The notes under the pieces: model-generated
What the model was told of the DNA's origin: nothing
The model's input: only the letters and a program-made list of their open reading frames with translations
Database searches by the model: none
From: Kofleriaceae bacterium
GTDB lineage: Bacteria; Myxococcota_A; Polyangia; Haliangiales; Haliangiaceae
Length of the DNA stretch: 41,458 nucleotides
Reading direction: 5' to 3'
Assembly: GCA_018058095.1 (NCBI GenBank)
Contig: JAGPCO010000068.1
Location: 1 to 41,458, forward strand
Position numbers and translations under genes: made by a program
Part shown: positions 5,865 through 12,357 of the stretch, in pieces
Position numbering within the stretch: the first letter of the stretch is position 1
How the letters are laid out: each line of letters begins with the position of its first letter

Positions 5865-6796
5865 CGCCGGGCCGCTCGCTCGCCCGGGAGGTCGCCGTCG
5901 GACGGGGCGTCGCCGTCGGGGTCGCGCTCGAGCTCACCCGGCGCCAGGGTGGCCGCGGCGCCGGCCAGGCCGCCGTCGCCGTCGGGCTCGGGCGGCTGGT
6001 CACGCCCGGGCGCCAGCAGGTGGTCGCGGTCGATGCCGGCGACGACCGCGGCCACGCGTGGGTCGTGGCCGAGCCGCTCCAGCAGGGCGTGGGCGGCGGC
6101 GTGGTACGGGCCCGGCGCCAGCGTGCCCTGCAGCAGCCGGAAGCGCAGGAACAGCAGCGCGGTCTGCACCACGTCGGCCAGGCAGTAGTCCTGGATGGCG
6201 CGCAGCTGCCCGGCCCGGTACAGGCCCTCGACCTGCGATCCGTCGACGCCGACCTTGCCCGGGAGCCCGACCAGGCGGGCCAGCGCGTCGAGGCTGCCGT
6301 AGCGGGTCGCGCCGTGATCGGCCAGCCAGTCGCACAGGTCGATGTGGCCGTCCTCGCTGTAGCGATAACGCACGCCGCGCTCGCGGTAGTACCAGGGCAA
6401 GGCGATGCCGTGGCACAACGCGCGCAGGGCGATGACCGGCAGATCGAAGATGCGGCCGTTGTAGGTCACCAGCACCGGCCGCGCCTTGCCGACGAAGCGC
6501 GACAGCTCGGTCAGGAGCGCCGCCTCGGTCCGATCGGCGCCGGCGCCGTCGTCGCGCCCGGGGCCGGGCCCGCCGGCGTCGACCGCGCCGTGCTCGGCGC
6601 CGCCGATCACCCCCAGCCGCTTGAGCCGGTAGTCGGCGTCGAGCCACAGGCAGCCGATGACGATGATGCGGTGGGCCCAGGCCGGCGGGAACGGCGCCTC
6701 GGTCCCCATCGGCGTCTCCGGCCGGACCCAGCGCGAGGTGTCGGGGATGGTCTCGAGATCGAGCACCAGGTATTCGGCACCGCGGTGGCTGGCCAC
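5861..6796 (-). CDS. Predicted 3'-5' exonuclease, PolB-exonuclease-like
   Basis: A 311-residue protein of the family annotated as predicted 3'-5' exonuclease related to the PolB proofreading domain (DNA_pol_B_exo2). Motifs of the DEDD fold are present: LDLETIP near the N-terminus (Asp and Glu metal ligands), [16 protein letters not shown] typical of this family, [13 protein letters not shown] (Exo II), and [10 protein letters not shown] (Exo III region). The annotated frame extends to a GTG at 6865, but I choose the GTG at 6796. It lies just before the conserved domain, and TATGGT sits six bases upstream of it. It is the first gene of a four-gene overlapping operon. The C-terminal 50 residues are Asp/Gly/Pro-rich and probably disordered. 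Confidence 0.87.
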
Positions 6797-6802
6797 GACC
6801 CG

Positions 6803-6808
6803 ACCATA
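6803..6808 (-). promoter_or_regulatory. -10-like hexamer for the exonuclease operon, leaderless type
   Basis: Read on the minus strand, TATGGT is followed by six bases and then the GTG at 6796. It lies inside the longer open frame, so if it is a promoter the longer start at 6865 is wrong. No Shine-Dalgarno site precedes 6796. Confidence 0.45.
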
Positions 6809-6938
6809 ACCGAGCGGGTGGGGCGCCCGGCCCGGGCCGATCCCAGCGGCACGAACGGTTTGCACGATCTGGACGATTATTTCGGGGTCCGGACCCCCGA
6901 CCCGGCCCGCAAGTAGGCGCCGTGTGAGCGAAATCCTC

Positions 6939-6966
6939 TTGTCGCCGCCGACGGCGCCGCCATAAT
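6939..6966 (+). promoter_or_regulatory. Putative sigma-70-type promoter
   Basis: TTGTCG (6939-6944), a 16-base spacer and CATAAT (6961-6966) resemble -35 and -10 boxes. They lie directly ahead of the ATG at 6977 and overlap the alternative ATG at 6965. A start near 6973 would give a leader of only a few bases. Confidence 0.4.
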
Positions 6967-6976
6967 GAGGGCCACC

Positions 6977-8659
6977 ATGACCCGCTCGGTTCGCTCGACC
7001 TCCGCGATCGCCGCCGGCCTCTCTTGCCTCCTGACCGCGCCGCTGGGGTCACGCGCCGGCGCCGGCTGGATCCGCGCCGCCGCCGCCGATGACGCGCCGG
7101 CCTGCCGCGTGGTCGAGGTGGCGCTGACCCCGGCCGCCGACCTGCAGCTGGTCGGCTGGATCGAGGACAGCACCGGCGCCTACGTCGACACCGTGTTCAT
7201 CACCAACAAGACCGGGCAGTACGGCCTCGGCAACCGGCCCGGCATCATGGAGTTCAACAGCGGGCCGCGCTGGCCGTACGGCGCTCGCACCACGACGCTG
7301 CCGGTGTGGGCCCACGCCCACGGCGAAGAGTTCCCGCTGGTCCACTTCCAGAACGGCAACGGCCTCGACGAGGGCAACGCGCTCGACAACGATCGCAACC
7401 TGAGCCACCCGTTCACCCAGTCGTCGCAGGAGACGATCTACTTCCGGCCGCTCCGGCCCGACGAGCCGGGCTGGGACACCGGCACCACCGCCTCGTTCGC
7501 GTACACCGACAAGGGCGAGGTGCACGCGACCTTGACCAGCAAGTACCCGCCGCGGGCCGACGTCATCCGCATGCCCGGGCTCGACAGCCCGTCGGTCGAC
7601 ATGTTCGAGGCGATGAACCCGTTCGACGAGGTGTCGCTGGCGACGCCCGCGGCCGGCGCGCCGTTCCAGGTCAGCTGGGCCATCCCACCCGACCTCGCCG
7701 CCGGCAACTACACGCTGGTGGTGGAGGCGGCCAAGGAGTTCGACCACAACGCGACGTACTCCGAGGCGGCCTACCCGCCGCCGAGCAACCTGTCCTGGTC
7801 CGAGTACGGCAAGCCGTACCGCGGCCAGCCGTCGGTGGTGTACCGCGTCCCGTTCGTGCTCGGCACCGAGGCGACCCGGGCCTCGACCGCGACCTACGCC
7901 GGCTACGGCGATCCGACCGGCGCCGACGGCACGGTCCGCCCGCCCGACGCGACCATCGACACCACCGTGCCTGGCTCGGGCGCGGCCCGCCTGCAGCTGG
8001 TGCCCGACGACGCTGGCGGCGACCTGTACCGGGTCCGGGTCGTGGCCCGGCCCGAGTTCGACGCCATGGCGCCGGGCGCGGCGACCGACCCGGTGGTGGC
8101 CCGGATCGATCATCGCTCGGTCGACCTGGTGTTCACCGCGCCCGGCGAGGACGGCGCGACCGGGCGGGTCACCGGCTACGAGGTGCGGTACCGCGCCGGC
8201 AGCCCAATCACCGCCGACAACTTCGCGGCGTCGAGCCCCATCGCCAGCACCATCGACCCCGAGCAGCCCGGCCAGGCCCAGAGCCTGACCATCGACGGCC
8301 TGCTGCCGCAGACCGACTACTACGTCGGCATCCAAGCCTACGACGACTGCCGCAACGTCGGTGCGCTCGTGGTCATCCCGTTCACGACGACGGAGCGTCG
8401 CATCGGCGAGGTCGACGCGTGTTTCGTCGCCACCGCCGCCTACGGCTCGAGCCTCGCCGGCGACGTCGAGATGCTGCGCCACGTGCGCGACGCGGTGCTG
8501 CGCCAGACCGTGGTCGGTGAGCTGGCGGTGGCCGCGTACTACACGTTCGGGCCGGCGCTGGCCGGAGTCGTCGGCGAGTCCGAGCTGCTGCGGGCGTCGG
8601 CCCGGGCCGCGCTGGCGCCGGTGGTCGGCAAGATCCGGCGCTGGGCCGTCGTCGAGTAG
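6977..8659 (+). CDS. Secreted fibronectin-III protein with CFI-box C-terminus
   Basis: A 560-residue exported protein. A signal peptide (hydrophobic stretch about residues 9-25) is followed by a beta-rich N-terminal domain. A fibronectin type III-like segment lies at about 385-470 ([13 protein letters not shown], then [11 protein letters not shown]). The C-terminus is the CFI-box module: Cys482 in [10 protein letters not shown], then LRHVRDAVL and a hydrophobic stretch [13 protein letters not shown]. This C-terminal domain recurs on secreted proteins of Myxococcota and some other Gram-negatives and may be a sorting or anchoring signal; its mechanism is not established to my knowledge. The N-terminal part contains [17 protein letters not shown] and may bind a ligand or metal, but I cannot name its family. 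ATG 6965 is an alternative start. Confidence 0.8.
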
Positions 8660-8684: not shown

Positions 8685-9278
8685 CTACTGCGCGGCGACG
8701 GCGACGTCGCCCATCAGCTGCAGGCTGACCGTGTCGGTCGTGCCGCCACACAGGCGATCGACGCTGACCGTGCCGCTGACGCTCAGCGCGAAGCCGGCCG
8801 GATCGGCGCCGTCGTCACACAGGCCGCTGGCCTGGGCGGTGCCGACCGGCGCCGTCGGCGTGAGGTCGATCGTGCAGCCGGCCGTGCTGGCGATGAGGTC
8901 GACCAGCAGGGCGCCGGTCCCGAGCGGGGTCGCCTGATCGAACAGGTCCGGCCGCGGCACGCACAGGGTGATGAGGCCGGGCTCGATGCCGTCCTGGATG
9001 CCGGCGATGGTCAGGCTGATGACCCCGGCCGGCGCGTTGGGGTCAGGGCAGTCGTTGTTGGCGCCGGCCTGCAGCATCGTGTACCGGGCCTCGAACCCGT
9101 CGCCGAACACCCGCAGCCCGTCCGGCGGCGTGGCGCCGGGGCCGCAGTCGCCGTCGCCGTCGTCGCCCGGGCAAGCCGCCAGGGCCAGGCTCACGGCCAG
9201 CCCGAGGCCGAGGCCGAGCAGGCGGCGTGAGGGCGACGTCGCGCGGGTGGCGGAGGGCAGGGCGGCGGGCATGGTCAC
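8685..9278 (-). CDS. Lipoprotein of unknown function in the DUF3570 operon
   Basis: A 197-residue putative lipoprotein. The signal peptide ends in LALAAC (Cys36) followed by an Asp/Gly-rich linker (PGDDGDGDCG). The mature part is a beta-rich domain with six or so cysteines that could form disulfides. The GTG start overlaps the stop of the DUF3570 gene (GTGA), with an ATG two codons later at 9272 as alternative. The overlap makes it the third gene of the DUF4266-DUF3570 operon, so it may be a periplasmic or surface partner of the outer-membrane barrel. No recognised family. Confidence 0.78.
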   Translation of the reverse strand: MTMPAALPSATRATSPSRRLLGLGLGLAVSLALAACPGDDGDGDCGPGATPPDGLRVFGDGFEARYTMLQAGANNDCPDPNAPAGVISLTIAGIQDGIEPGLITLCVPRPDLFDQATPLGTGALLVDLIASTAGCTIDLTPTAPVGTAQASGLCDDGADPAGFALSVSGTVSVDRLCGGTTDTVSLQLMGDVAVAAQ

Positions 9279-10411
9279 TCCTCGAGGGGGACGGTCAGCG
9301 CGAGCTGGGCGACGATGGCGTTGCCGAACCGGTTGTACTGCAGCACGTACTCGAGCACACCCTCGACGCGCGCGCCGCCCCAGCGGCCGGACAGGCCGAA
9401 CGCCTCGCCCAGCGCCGCCAGCTTGGCCTCGACGGTGTGGGTGGTGAAGGCCGACAGCTTCTCGTCGTCGGTCAGGTGCGGCTGCATCACCGGATCGCTG
9501 GTCGGGTAGCGGTCCTGGTAGAAGTCGGCCGCGCCCTGGCGGTGGTAGCGATACCGCAGGCCGGCCTCGACGGTGTCACCCGCCGCTTGCACCAGCCGGA
9601 GCTCGGGCGTGTGGGCGACCACGCCCCAGGAGTCGGTGTAGAAGCGGTAGCTCGCGATCCACGTCGTGCCGGCGCGCGGCACGAAGCCGCGCCCGCTGGC
9701 GGCGACGGCGTGCCGGGTCCGGACGTCGGGGTGGCGCTCCATCACCAGGCCATCGAGGGTCACGACCGAGCGGTACGGGTTCTCCTGGAAGCCGCGCAGG
9801 CGGGCGACGTCGTAGGTCGCGCCGACCACGAGGTTGGGCCCGAGCAGGTGGCTGGCCGAGGCCGAGCCGAGCACGGTGCGCAGCTCGCCCGAGACGGCCG
9901 GGGCCAGGCCCTGCGCGCCGGCGTTGGACAGGTTGTCCTGGCCGTAGGCGGCGCCGGCGCCGAGGGTGAGGTTCTTCTCGGCCAGCTCGGCGTCGACGCG
10001 TACGCTGCCGAAGCGGGACTGGTAGTCGGGCTCGGTCGACAGCCGGGCCCGTCCGCCCAGGCGCAGGGTGTCGAGCGGGCCGACGCGCTGGCCGAGCAGC
10101 TGGTGGGCGTAGCCGGCGCCGACCTCGTACCGCCGCTCGGTGAACGCCTCGTCGTCGCTGCCGGCGGCGGCCGAGGCCGAGGTGATGGCGTCGAGCAGGG
10201 CGTGGCCGTCGACGCGGCCGCGCGCGCCGACGTCGACGCCGGCGTCGACCATGGGCTGCACGACGCGGGTCGCGCGCTCCTTGTAGTAGATGCCGCGCAC
10301 CGTGAGCGTGTCGTCGGCCCGGGCCGCGCCGGGCGCGACCAGCGACGACACCAGCGCGCCGATCAGGCCGAGCGCGGCGGGCCTGGCGAGGGCTGGCTCA
10401 GTTGCAGCCAC
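9275..10411 (-). CDS. DUF3570 family outer-membrane beta-barrel protein
   Basis: A 378-residue protein that I assign to the DUF3570 family from its signature just after the signal peptide (ADDTLTVRGIYYKERATRVVQP) and the YRFYTDSWGVVAHTPEL and YRYHRQGAADFY segments. Alternating polar/hydrophobic strands and the aromatic-rich body fit an outer-membrane barrel. The N-terminus is a signal peptide ending AARA|DD. Starts at GTG 10438 or GTG 10411 are possible; I use 10411, which overlaps the DUF4266 gene by 14 bases rather than 41. My recollection is that DUF3570 genes pair with DUF4266 genes, often near ApbE-type flavin transferases. No apbE lies in this window. Function is unknown. Confidence 0.85.
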   Translation of the reverse strand: MAATEPALARPAALGLIGALVSSLVAPGAARADDTLTVRGIYYKERATRVVQPMVDAGVDVGARGRVDGHALLDAITSASAAAGSDDEAFTERRYEVGAGYAHQLLGQRVGPLDTLRLGGRARLSTEPDYQSRFGSVRVDAELAEKNLTLGAGAAYGQDNLSNAGAQGLAPAVSGELRTVLGSASASHLLGPNLVVGATYDVARLRGFQENPYRSVVTLDGLVMERHPDVRTRHAVAASGRGFVPRAGTTWIASYRFYTDSWGVVAHTPELRLVQAAGDTVEAGLRYRYHRQGAADFYQDRYPTSDPVMQPHLTDDEKLSAFTTHTVEAKLAALGEAFGLSGRWGGARVEGVLEYVLQYNRFGNAIVAQLALTVPLEE

Positions 10412-10616
10412 AGCCGCCTCCGGGCTCGCCAGTGCCACCGTCGGCGCCCTCGCGCGAGCCGGTCTGGTGCTGACCGAACCGCGCCTCGCCGGCGTCGCGG
10501 TCCTGGGTCATCGAGCGGCGGGCCAGGTTCTCGCGCTGGTGGGCGCGGACGACGACGCAGCCGCTGCCGGCGCCGACACCGAGGAGGAGCGCGAGGGCCA
10601 GCGCGAGGGATCGCAC
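10398..10616 (-). CDS. DUF4266 family small lipoprotein with GGGCGCN tail
   Basis: A 72-residue protein starting at GTG 10616. It has a short signal peptide with lipobox GAGSGC (Cys20), the conserved-looking centre RENLARRSMTQDRD, then SREGADGGTGEPGGGCGCN at the C-terminus. This layout (lipobox, ENLA..M, SREG.GG, terminal GGGCGCN) is what I recognise as DUF4266. The two cysteines of the last four residues could bind a metal or be modified; that is speculation. The gene overlaps and precedes the DUF3570 barrel gene. TAGAAC seven bases before the GTG may be the -10 box of a leaderless transcript. Confidence 0.85.
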   Translation of the reverse strand: MRSLALALALLLGVGAGSGCVVVRAHQRENLARRSMTQDRDAGEARFGQHQTGSREGADGGTGEPGGGCGCN

Positions 10617-10623
10617 GCCTGCG

Positions 10624-10629
10624 GTTCTA
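10624..10629 (-). promoter_or_regulatory. Putative -10 box of the DUF4266 operon
   Basis: On the minus strand TAGAAC is followed by seven bases and the GTG at 10616. It matches four of six -10 consensus positions. No Shine-Dalgarno sequence precedes the start. Confidence 0.3.
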
Positions 10630-10761
10630 CCAGGCCAGGTCGCCGGTGAGAACGTGGCCTGCCGGTTTCTCGGCGCGCCGGCCTGGCCCGTGCGCTGGCG
10701 CACGCCCCGCGGCAGCCTGACGCGGGCGGCGGCGCAGGCGACGAGGGCCGATGGATCCAGG

Positions 10762-10767
10762 TATGTT
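10762..10767 (+). promoter_or_regulatory. -10-like hexamer, leaderless type
   Basis: TATGTT ends six bases before the GTG at 10774, the start that gives an ideal lipoprotein signal. No -35 box is evident at 16-18 bases. Confidence 0.42.
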
Positions 10768-10773
10768 CGGTCC

Positions 10774-12357
10774 GTGATCGGCGCACGGTGGCTCCTGGTG
10801 ATCGTCGGCCTGGCCGGGTGTGGCGCCGCGCCGCAGGTGGTGGCGCCGGGGCCGAGCCTCGAGCCGGCGCCGATCCGCCCGGAAGACCTCGACCTGACGC
10901 TGGCGCCCATCGCCCTGCAGGGCGGGGTGCTGACGCGGCCGGAGCTGGGGCGCCCACCGATGCTGCTGGTGGAGAGCCGGCGCAAGGCCACGCTGGTGGC
11001 GCGGCGCGAGGCGTACCAGCGGGCCCGCGCGCGCGGCCGGGCCGACGAGCACCGGCTGCTGGGGCAGGTGCTGGCGACCGAGCTGTACCAGGCGGCGGGG
11101 CGCGAGGCCCGCCCGGATCGCGAGCGCGCCCTGCTGGTCGAGGCGCGCCAGATCATCGGCGAGGTGGTGACCAGCGCCGGGGACAAGGTCGACGCCACGA
11201 TCCTGGCCATCGCCGCGGTGCACGACGTGATCGCCACCGACTGGCCGGCGGCGCGGGCCCGGCTGGCGGCGCTGGCGGCGCTGCCGGATGCGCCGGCCTG
11301 GGTCCGGGGCTGGCGGGCGTGGGCCGAGCTGCTCACCGAGGGGCAGGCCGCGGCGGTCGCGGCGCTGGCCGGCGCGGTGCCCGATCGCGCGCGCGCCGAC
11401 GAGGCGCTGGTGCTGGCCTGGGTCCGGTTCGCCAGCGGTGATCGGGTCGGGGCGTGGGCGGCGATGGCGGTCGCGGCCGCGGCCGGGCGCACGACGCGGC
11501 CGATCGAGCCCAGGCACCTGCTGTGGCTGGCCGGGCACGGCGGCGCCAGCGTGGCCGACGCGGCCGCGGTGATCCAGGCGCACGTCGGCGCCGACGCCGC
11601 CGCGGCGCAGGGGTTGCTGCTCGAGCTGGCGCCGGCGATGGCCGCGGCCGGGCGCTGGCAAGCGGCCATCGACGCGGTCGAGGTGTGGCGGCAGGCGGCC
11701 GCGGCCGGCGCCAGCGGGCCGCCAGCGGCGCTGGCGCTGGTGCAGCGGGTGGCGCAGGCCGAGTACGCGCTCCGGCTCGGCGTGCCGGCGACGGTGAGTG
11801 GCCTGGCCGAGCAGGCCCTGGTCGGCCTGGCCGCGTGCGGGGCTCGTTGTGACGACGACCGCCCTGACCTGCTGGCGCGGGTCCGGAAGATCGCCGACTT
11901 CTTCCATCGCGTGTACGTCACCAGCGGCGACGCGCGGTACCTGCCGGCGGCGCGGGTGCTGTACACCGGCCTGGTCGGCCCGGGGCCGGCGGCGACCGAT
12001 GCGGCGGCGGCGCGGGCCCAGCTCGACGAGAGCGCCCGCAACCTGGCAGCCGGCGCCGGGACCCACGAGCGCAGCGTGCTCGAGCCGCTGGTCGGGCTGC
12101 ACGCCGAGGAGGTGCGCGCCTGCTACGAGGCCGCCCTCCTCACCGCGCCGGCGCTGACCGGGGTGCTCGGCCTCGAGCTCCAGGTCGACGCGGCCGGCAC
12201 GGTGATCGGCGCGGCCACGGATCCGCCGCCGGGCGCGGCCGGCCTGGCCGCGGTGGCGGCGTGTGCCGAGGCCCAGGTCCGGACCTGGGTCTTGCCGGCC
12301 CGCACCCGCCCCGGGCTGACCACGTTGCGGCTGTCGGTCCAGCTGGCGCCGCGCTGA
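10774..12357 (+). CDS. Lipoprotein with AgmX/PglI-like C-terminal domain
   Basis: A 527-residue lipoprotein. The GTG at 10774 gives a compact signal peptide with lipobox GLAGC (Cys16). The longer frame upstream would spoil it. The body is Ala-rich and helical, probably tetratricopeptide-like repeats. The last 90 residues contain HAEEVRACYEAAL, then LGLELQVDAAGTVIGA and a final beta strand pair. That pattern matches the AgmX/PglI C-terminal domain, a TonB-C-like module frequent in Myxococcota, where AgmX and PglI were linked to gliding motility in Myxococcus. A motility role here is not shown. The gene diverges from the DUF4266 operon across 157 bases and converges on the TPR gene. Confidence 0.82.
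   Translation: MIGARWLLVIVGLAGCGAAPQVVAPGPSLEPAPIRPEDLDLTLAPIALQGGVLTRPELGRPPMLLVESRRKATLVARREAYQRARARGRADEHRLLGQVLATELYQAAGREARPDRERALLVEARQIIGEVVTSAGDKVDATILAIAAVHDVIATDWPAARARLAALAALPDAPAWVRGWRAWAELLTEGQAAAVAALAGAVPDRARADEALVLAWVRFASGDRVGAWAAMAVAAAAGRTTRPIEPRHLLWLAGHGGASVADAAAVIQAHVGADAAAAQGLLLELAPAMAAAGRWQAAIDAVEVWRQAAAAGASGPPAALALVQRVAQAEYALRLGVPATVSGLAEQALVGLAACGARCDDDRPDLLARVRKIADFFHRVYVTSGDARYLPAARVLYTGLVGPGPAATDAAAARAQLDESARNLAAGAGTHERSVLEPLVGLHAEEVRACYEAALLTAPALTGVLGLELQVDAAGTVIGAATDPPPGAAGLAAVAACAEAQVRTWVLPARTRPGLTTLRLSVQLAPR

Follow-up and report, generated by a model that had tools for sequence, protein, structure and literature searches.

A DUF4266/DUF3570 operon of a Kofleriaceae bacterium as a candidate variant of an extracytosolic flavin electron-transfer module

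The operon described here encodes a short DUF4266 lipoprotein, a DUF3570 protein and a Cys-rich lipoprotein, and raises the question of whether a pair of protein families associated with flavin-based redox chemistry may still serve it when the flavin attachment motif is altered and no flavin transferase gene lies nearby. The window, i.e., the whole stretch of 41,458 nucleotides that was analyzed, corresponds to contig 42 in an assembly of 227 contigs and 7.57 Mb. An earlier note on this DNA, made from the sequence alone, had called the system poorly described, but its two-gene core was described in 2021 as an ApbE substrate and a CXC protein, along with its gene neighborhood (Meheust et al. 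2021, PMC8238504). According to the passages of that paper devoted to these families, the ApbE of Chlorobium luteolum attaches flavin to the organism's DUF3570 protein at two [ST]GA[ST] sites, the C-terminal CXC of DUF4266 is highly conserved and may redox-cycle, DUF4266 is present in 221 DsbD-type clusters, and the ApbE/Trx-like/DsbD neighborhood of DUF3570 and DUF4266 is already reported. The same passages give no structural location for the flavin, and our literature search found DUF3570, DUF4266 or their Pfam numbers named in this paper only.

All three open reading frames lie on the minus strand in the tight order DUF4266, DUF3570, Cys-rich lipoprotein (Table 1), as the earlier note had it; of the span then given, 8685–10629, the lower end agrees with the gene boundary, but the upper end lies 13 bases upstream of the DUF4266 start codon. 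DUF3570 has, besides the start listed in Table 1, a second plausible GTG at 10411, within the codons for the DUF4266 CGCN tail, and the overlap between the two genes therefore amounts to 14–41 bases, depending on the GTG. For the third gene, an ATG at 9272 is a likelier start than the GTG and stands directly at the DUF3570 stop (GAG TGA CC ATG). Given these overlaps, the genes of the operon are likely to be translationally coupled.

Table 1 Features of the DUF4266/DUF3570 operon, in window coordinates
Feature	Position	Strand	Start, stop and basis
DUF4266 lipoprotein, 72 aa	10398..10616	-	GTG 10616, stop 10398; PF14086 E=3.8e-16
DUF3570 protein, 387 aa from first GTG (10438)	9275..10438	-	PF12094 E=7.8e-33
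Single flavinylation-like motif D83-A-I-T-S-A-S89	10172..10192	-	Alignments and motif survey; coordinates computed from residue numbers
Kofleriaceae-type lipoprotein, 197 aa from GTG 9278	8685..9278	-	Beside the pair in 20/20 Kofleriaceae-type loci

On one side of the operon lies a convergent gene (6965–8659, plus strand) whose product is a secreted FN3 protein that ends in a CFI-box domain (NF041770, E=1.7e-20). On the other side, the C-terminal part of a divergent gene product (10654–12357, plus strand) gives an AgmX/PglI-type match (NF033768, below cut-off); this gene is kept beside the operon in four related loci. A DUF2271-like match in the FN3/CFI-box gene (E=6.5e-5, residues 218–260) might have marked a second, linked ApbE substrate, but this idea was rejected because the match is partial and below the curated cut-off and the gene is convergent and outside the operon.

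Profile searches assign both core proteins to the families proposed for them, far above the cut-offs: the DUF4266 protein matches PF14086 at 60.2 bits (curated cut-off 27) over the full length of the profile (1–50), and the DUF3570 protein matches PF12094 at 114.3 bits (cut-off 25) over profile positions 7–377 of 427. No solved structure was matched by sequence with either profile. The window DUF4266 has a GSGC lipobox with lipidated Cys20, a mature chain of 53 residues and a C-terminal GGGCGCN, the CXC of the family thus taking the form CGCN. CGC plus one residue closes 124/124 parsed copies and CGCN 120/124, and in 103 of the 124 the mature chain, counted from the lipidated Cys on, is exactly 53 residues long (range 50–57), counts that are not fully independent, some copies being the same contig met via two collections. 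The two points on which the earlier note had staked its observation, profile placement and conservation of the tail, have both come out in its favor; its suggestion that the tail might be a modification site has not, as the covalent modification that is known for this pair falls in DUF3570 and not in the tail.

The mature DUF4266 chain also contains one His (99%) and one Glu (100%) that are as conserved as the two tail cysteines. Such conservation would be expected if the CGC and the invariant His and Glu formed a copper or iron site, with the barrel moving or reducing metal at the surface, and iron transporters do co-occur with some DUF3570 clusters in the cluster descriptions of PMC8238504. 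However, no metal-transport gene was recognized among the recurring neighbors of the window clade, and flavin-driven metal reduction would be compatible with a flavin-based module, hence not a rival to it; we consider a role in metal handling as such quite unlikely.

The window copy departs from the published type in its DUF3570 protein. Measured against D-x-x-[ST]-G-A-[ST], which we take to be the canonical flavinylation motif, it carries one motif, DAITSAS, with Ser in place of Gly, and the second site is absent. In copies of the published, ApbE-linked type, both sites contain Gly (MSGAS...MTGAT), and this pair of [ST]GA[ST] motifs, by which a DUF3570-type ApbE substrate is recognized, is not found in the window protein; the acceptor, the preceding Ala and the upstream Asp are all retained (D83, A88, S89). 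Across 81 Myxococcota DUF3570s, Asp or Glu at position 1, Ser or Thr at position 4, Ala at position 6 and the Ser/Thr acceptor are each present in 81/81, and the Gly position is occupied by Gly in 33, Ser in 32, Ala in 13, Cys in two and Thr in one. The Polyangia clade of the window (20 rows, support 100/99) has the single site Dx[IV][ST]SAS and has lost the second one, and a second clade retains Gly at the first site but not at the second. Named genomes were scanned with a clade-only alignment, an alignment across all DUF3570 clades being too diverse, and D, I, [ST], S, A and S proved invariant in 43/43 named members of the window's clade, which argues that the acceptor is under selection. 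The paralogues in the same genome read DVVSGAT (contig C120, site-1-Gly clade), DAWTGAS (C13), and TSAS plus SAAT (C207). Upstream of the motif, L069/L208 (genome G359) also shows DFPSGAT, which looks canonical; it was set aside because it is not conserved in the sister genome G362.

Judged by the ApbE consensus, the substitution and the single site would speak against flavinylation of the window copy. In a fumarate reductase, a Gly-to-Ala change still permits about 50% flavinylation (PMC12052999), and no report of a flavinylation test of Gly-to-Ser was found in our literature search.

DUF3570 lies near DUF4266 in 82 of the 84 Myxococcota loci read, and the association is therefore not a matter of chance. 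A neighboring apbE, described in the earlier note as frequent, does recur in the published clusters with DUF4266, DUF3570 and Trx-like genes (cluster descriptions in PMC8238504), but it was seen in only 16 of the 84 loci, and the window's clade has none within 5 kb at any of 20 loci. The same 20 loci have no small WCxxC protein within 5 kb (motif search, predicted ORFs only), and stray CxxCH matches occur in two of them. No DsbD was found among the Pfam-scanned neighbors of the operon, and neither the apbE nor the thioredoxin-like gene of a DsbD/ApbE/DUF3570 cluster is present at the window locus. CxxCH genes lie within 5 kb at 13 of 21 tandem-site loci and at seven of eight DxW loci (motif matches in predicted ORFs), and other DUF3570 clades adjoin genes for TlpA-like, MauG-like (propeller) or multihaem cytochrome proteins (5-, 9- and 10-haem). 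The suggested membership of an extracytosolic redox class is supported.

Two further observations concern other pairs. Genes for nine- and ten-haem secreted cytochromes are found close to pairs of other clades in three loci (L109:3902–6199, L116:9894–12359 and L068:9496–12630), which suggests that these barrels take part in haem-based electron transfer, and the neighborhood of the pair on contig C13 holds a DUF692-like gene (MNIO-type, by eye) and a DUF2271 gene with VDAVTGPT (L012:544–1458, 6402–6953).

No apbE is present in the window, as had been noted before, and the only ApbE of the genome, which has a signal peptide, is encoded on another contig (C138), unlinked to the operon. The genome has four DUF4266/DUF3570 pairs, and no FMN_bind protein was found in it; it does encode a DUF2271 protein with canonical DAVSGAT and two DUF3570 paralogues with canonical sites, and its ApbE therefore need not serve the window copy. 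More widely, DUF4266 occurs in 139/379 Myxococcota genomes, with up to six copies each. Among 105 genomes of the class, 75 of the 77 with DUF4266 encode ApbE vs 16 of the 28 without; for genomes lacking both FMN_bind and DUF2271 the figures are 38/39 vs 6/18 (Fisher p=3e-7), all counts being uncorrected for shared ancestry. In six genomes (G023, G193, G345, G362, G375 and G377), ApbE is present, FMN_bind and DUF2271 are both lacking, and every DUF3570 is Gly-less; two of these genomes are 82–90% complete, so that a substrate may have been missed. A Gly-less DUF3570 has apbE beside it in three loci (L096, L097 and L104). These copies, the genome counts and the Gly-to-Ala result provide moderate support, short of proof, for the idea that Gly-less sites may be modified in trans. 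One genome (G330, 95% complete; L127, L145, L151 and L153) has several DUF3570s, one of them with canonical DVVTGAT, and no detectable ApbE, and it counts against the flavinylation reading.

AlphaFold2, run on the window DUF3570 with 42 clade relatives, confidently predicts a β-barrel (pLDDT 90.9, pTM 0.83) in which 16 strands were counted. The prediction has the marks of an outer-membrane barrel, i.e., an even strand number after a signal peptide and, in 39 of 43 clade members, a terminal Phe or Tyr, the usual C-terminus of such barrels; the window copy itself ends in Glu. The inter-strand gaps average 11.5 residues on one side and 5.0 on the other, and since both ends of such barrels are by the usual rule placed in the periplasm, the long-loop side would face outward. 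The motif lies in the hairpin joining strands 3 and 4, at this long-loop end, and 38 of the 39 invariant barrel residues fall in the motif-end half (binomial p=1e-8). In the model, the motif and nearly all invariant barrel residues would accordingly be gathered at the presumed outer mouth.

Foldseek and VIA-align searches with the model matched only general barrels in the PDB, and matches to OccD/OccK, OmpG, BcsC, MtrB and other barrels were read as general barrel likeness, not kinship. That the matches are general porins and export barrels, and that redox genes are absent nearby in the window clade, would be in keeping with a plain porin or adhesin-like barrel accompanied by two lipoproteins and devoid of a redox role in this lineage. 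We regard this as very improbable; an invariant CGC tail and a flavinylation-like motif are hard to explain without chemistry at these sites, and sister clades adjoin cytochromes and thioredoxins.

A more serious alternative, albeit one that we consider somewhat doubtful, is that the window clade has lost the ApbE modification, and that D-x-I-[ST]-S-A-S shapes a pocket at the mouth for free flavin, a quinone or another small molecule. The conserved residues are spread across the outer loops in the manner of a binding pocket, the loss of Gly and the deletion of the second site are clade-wide, no apbE adjoins the clade's loci, and the canonical DUF3570 and DUF2271 proteins can account for the ApbE of the genome. 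However, the acceptor Ser and the S-A preceding it are fully invariant, ApbE is retained where the DUF3570s are all Gly-less, and apbE adjoins Gly-less copies elsewhere.

The third gene is, as had been surmised, a lineage-specific addition: the Cys-rich lipoprotein follows the pair in all 20 Kofleriaceae-type loci (L166–L185), and no other named locus was found to have it. Downstream of the lipidated Cys36, its invariant residues are Cys 45, 77, 106, 135, 154 and 177, and R109-P110-D111. The predicted structure is an all-β domain (pLDDT 83.9), and the six non-lipid cysteines fit three disulfides. No Pfam family was matched, and a fold search gave no usable relative (best E 0.25). This disulfide-rich protein is probably an accessory of the DUF4266/DUF3570 complex.

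Weighing these data, we see an even chance that the operon is a variant DUF4266/DUF3570 extracytosolic flavin electron-transfer module, a stripped-down surface flavin/dithiol system that is flavinylated in trans. The exported ApbE would attach FMN to Ser89 before the DUF3570 protein is inserted in the outer membrane as a 16-stranded barrel, and the FMN would then sit at its outer mouth. DUF4266, lipid-anchored in the same membrane, would bring its C-terminal Cys-Gly-Cys to the barrel and swap electrons with the flavin by dithiol/disulfide exchange, much as Erv-type sulfhydryl oxidases do with their cysteine-pair shuttle tails, so that electron flow could link a thiol carrier in the periplasm to an acceptor outside the cell, with the three proteins of the operon presumably in contact.

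In a bolder version, which we think unlikely, the module would form a haem-free conduit: the 53-residue DUF4266 chain, anchored on the inside, would thread the barrel until its CGC meets the FMN at the outer mouth, ApbE would accept [ST]-S-A-S, and electrons would pass from periplasmic thiols to extracellular acceptors. The fixed length of DUF4266 would suit a chain that reaches or crosses the barrel; since short conserved domains often keep their length anyway, threading is a lead rather than a result.

What the present analysis adds is the survey of the CGC tail and of DUF4266 length, the barrel model, the clade with one Gly-less site and an ApbE in trans, and the extra lipoprotein. With the motif and nearly all conserved residues at one end, the model offers a specific and testable idea, surface electron transfer by flavin and thiols instead of haem. 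The Gly-less clade calls the assumed ApbE consensus into question, and motif-based counts of flavinylated proteins may therefore miss a large set in Myxococcota.

As far as the cluster descriptions in PMC8238504 allow a comparison, the window operon shares with the published clusters the two Pfam families side by side, the C-terminal CXC and the Ser/Thr acceptor of the motif, but differs in several respects: its cluster lacks both apbE and a thioredoxin-like gene, ApbE being encoded on another contig; the second flavin site is missing and the remaining one has Ser for Gly; and a Kofleriaceae lipoprotein is added. The likeness to the Erv/ALR sulfhydryl oxidases is one of analogy, in that electrons would move between a flavin and a flexible tail bearing a cysteine pair; the folds are unrelated. 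In Erv/ALR oxidases, FAD is bound non-covalently in a helical domain, and tail and flavin domain usually belong to one protein. The Mtr complex is among the structural matches to the DUF3570 model (Z 16.1), as one of many barrels, and the resemblance to MtrABC-type conduits is again by analogy only, i.e., an outer-membrane barrel with a redox partner at or through it; in those conduits, the electrons are carried by multihaem cytochromes.
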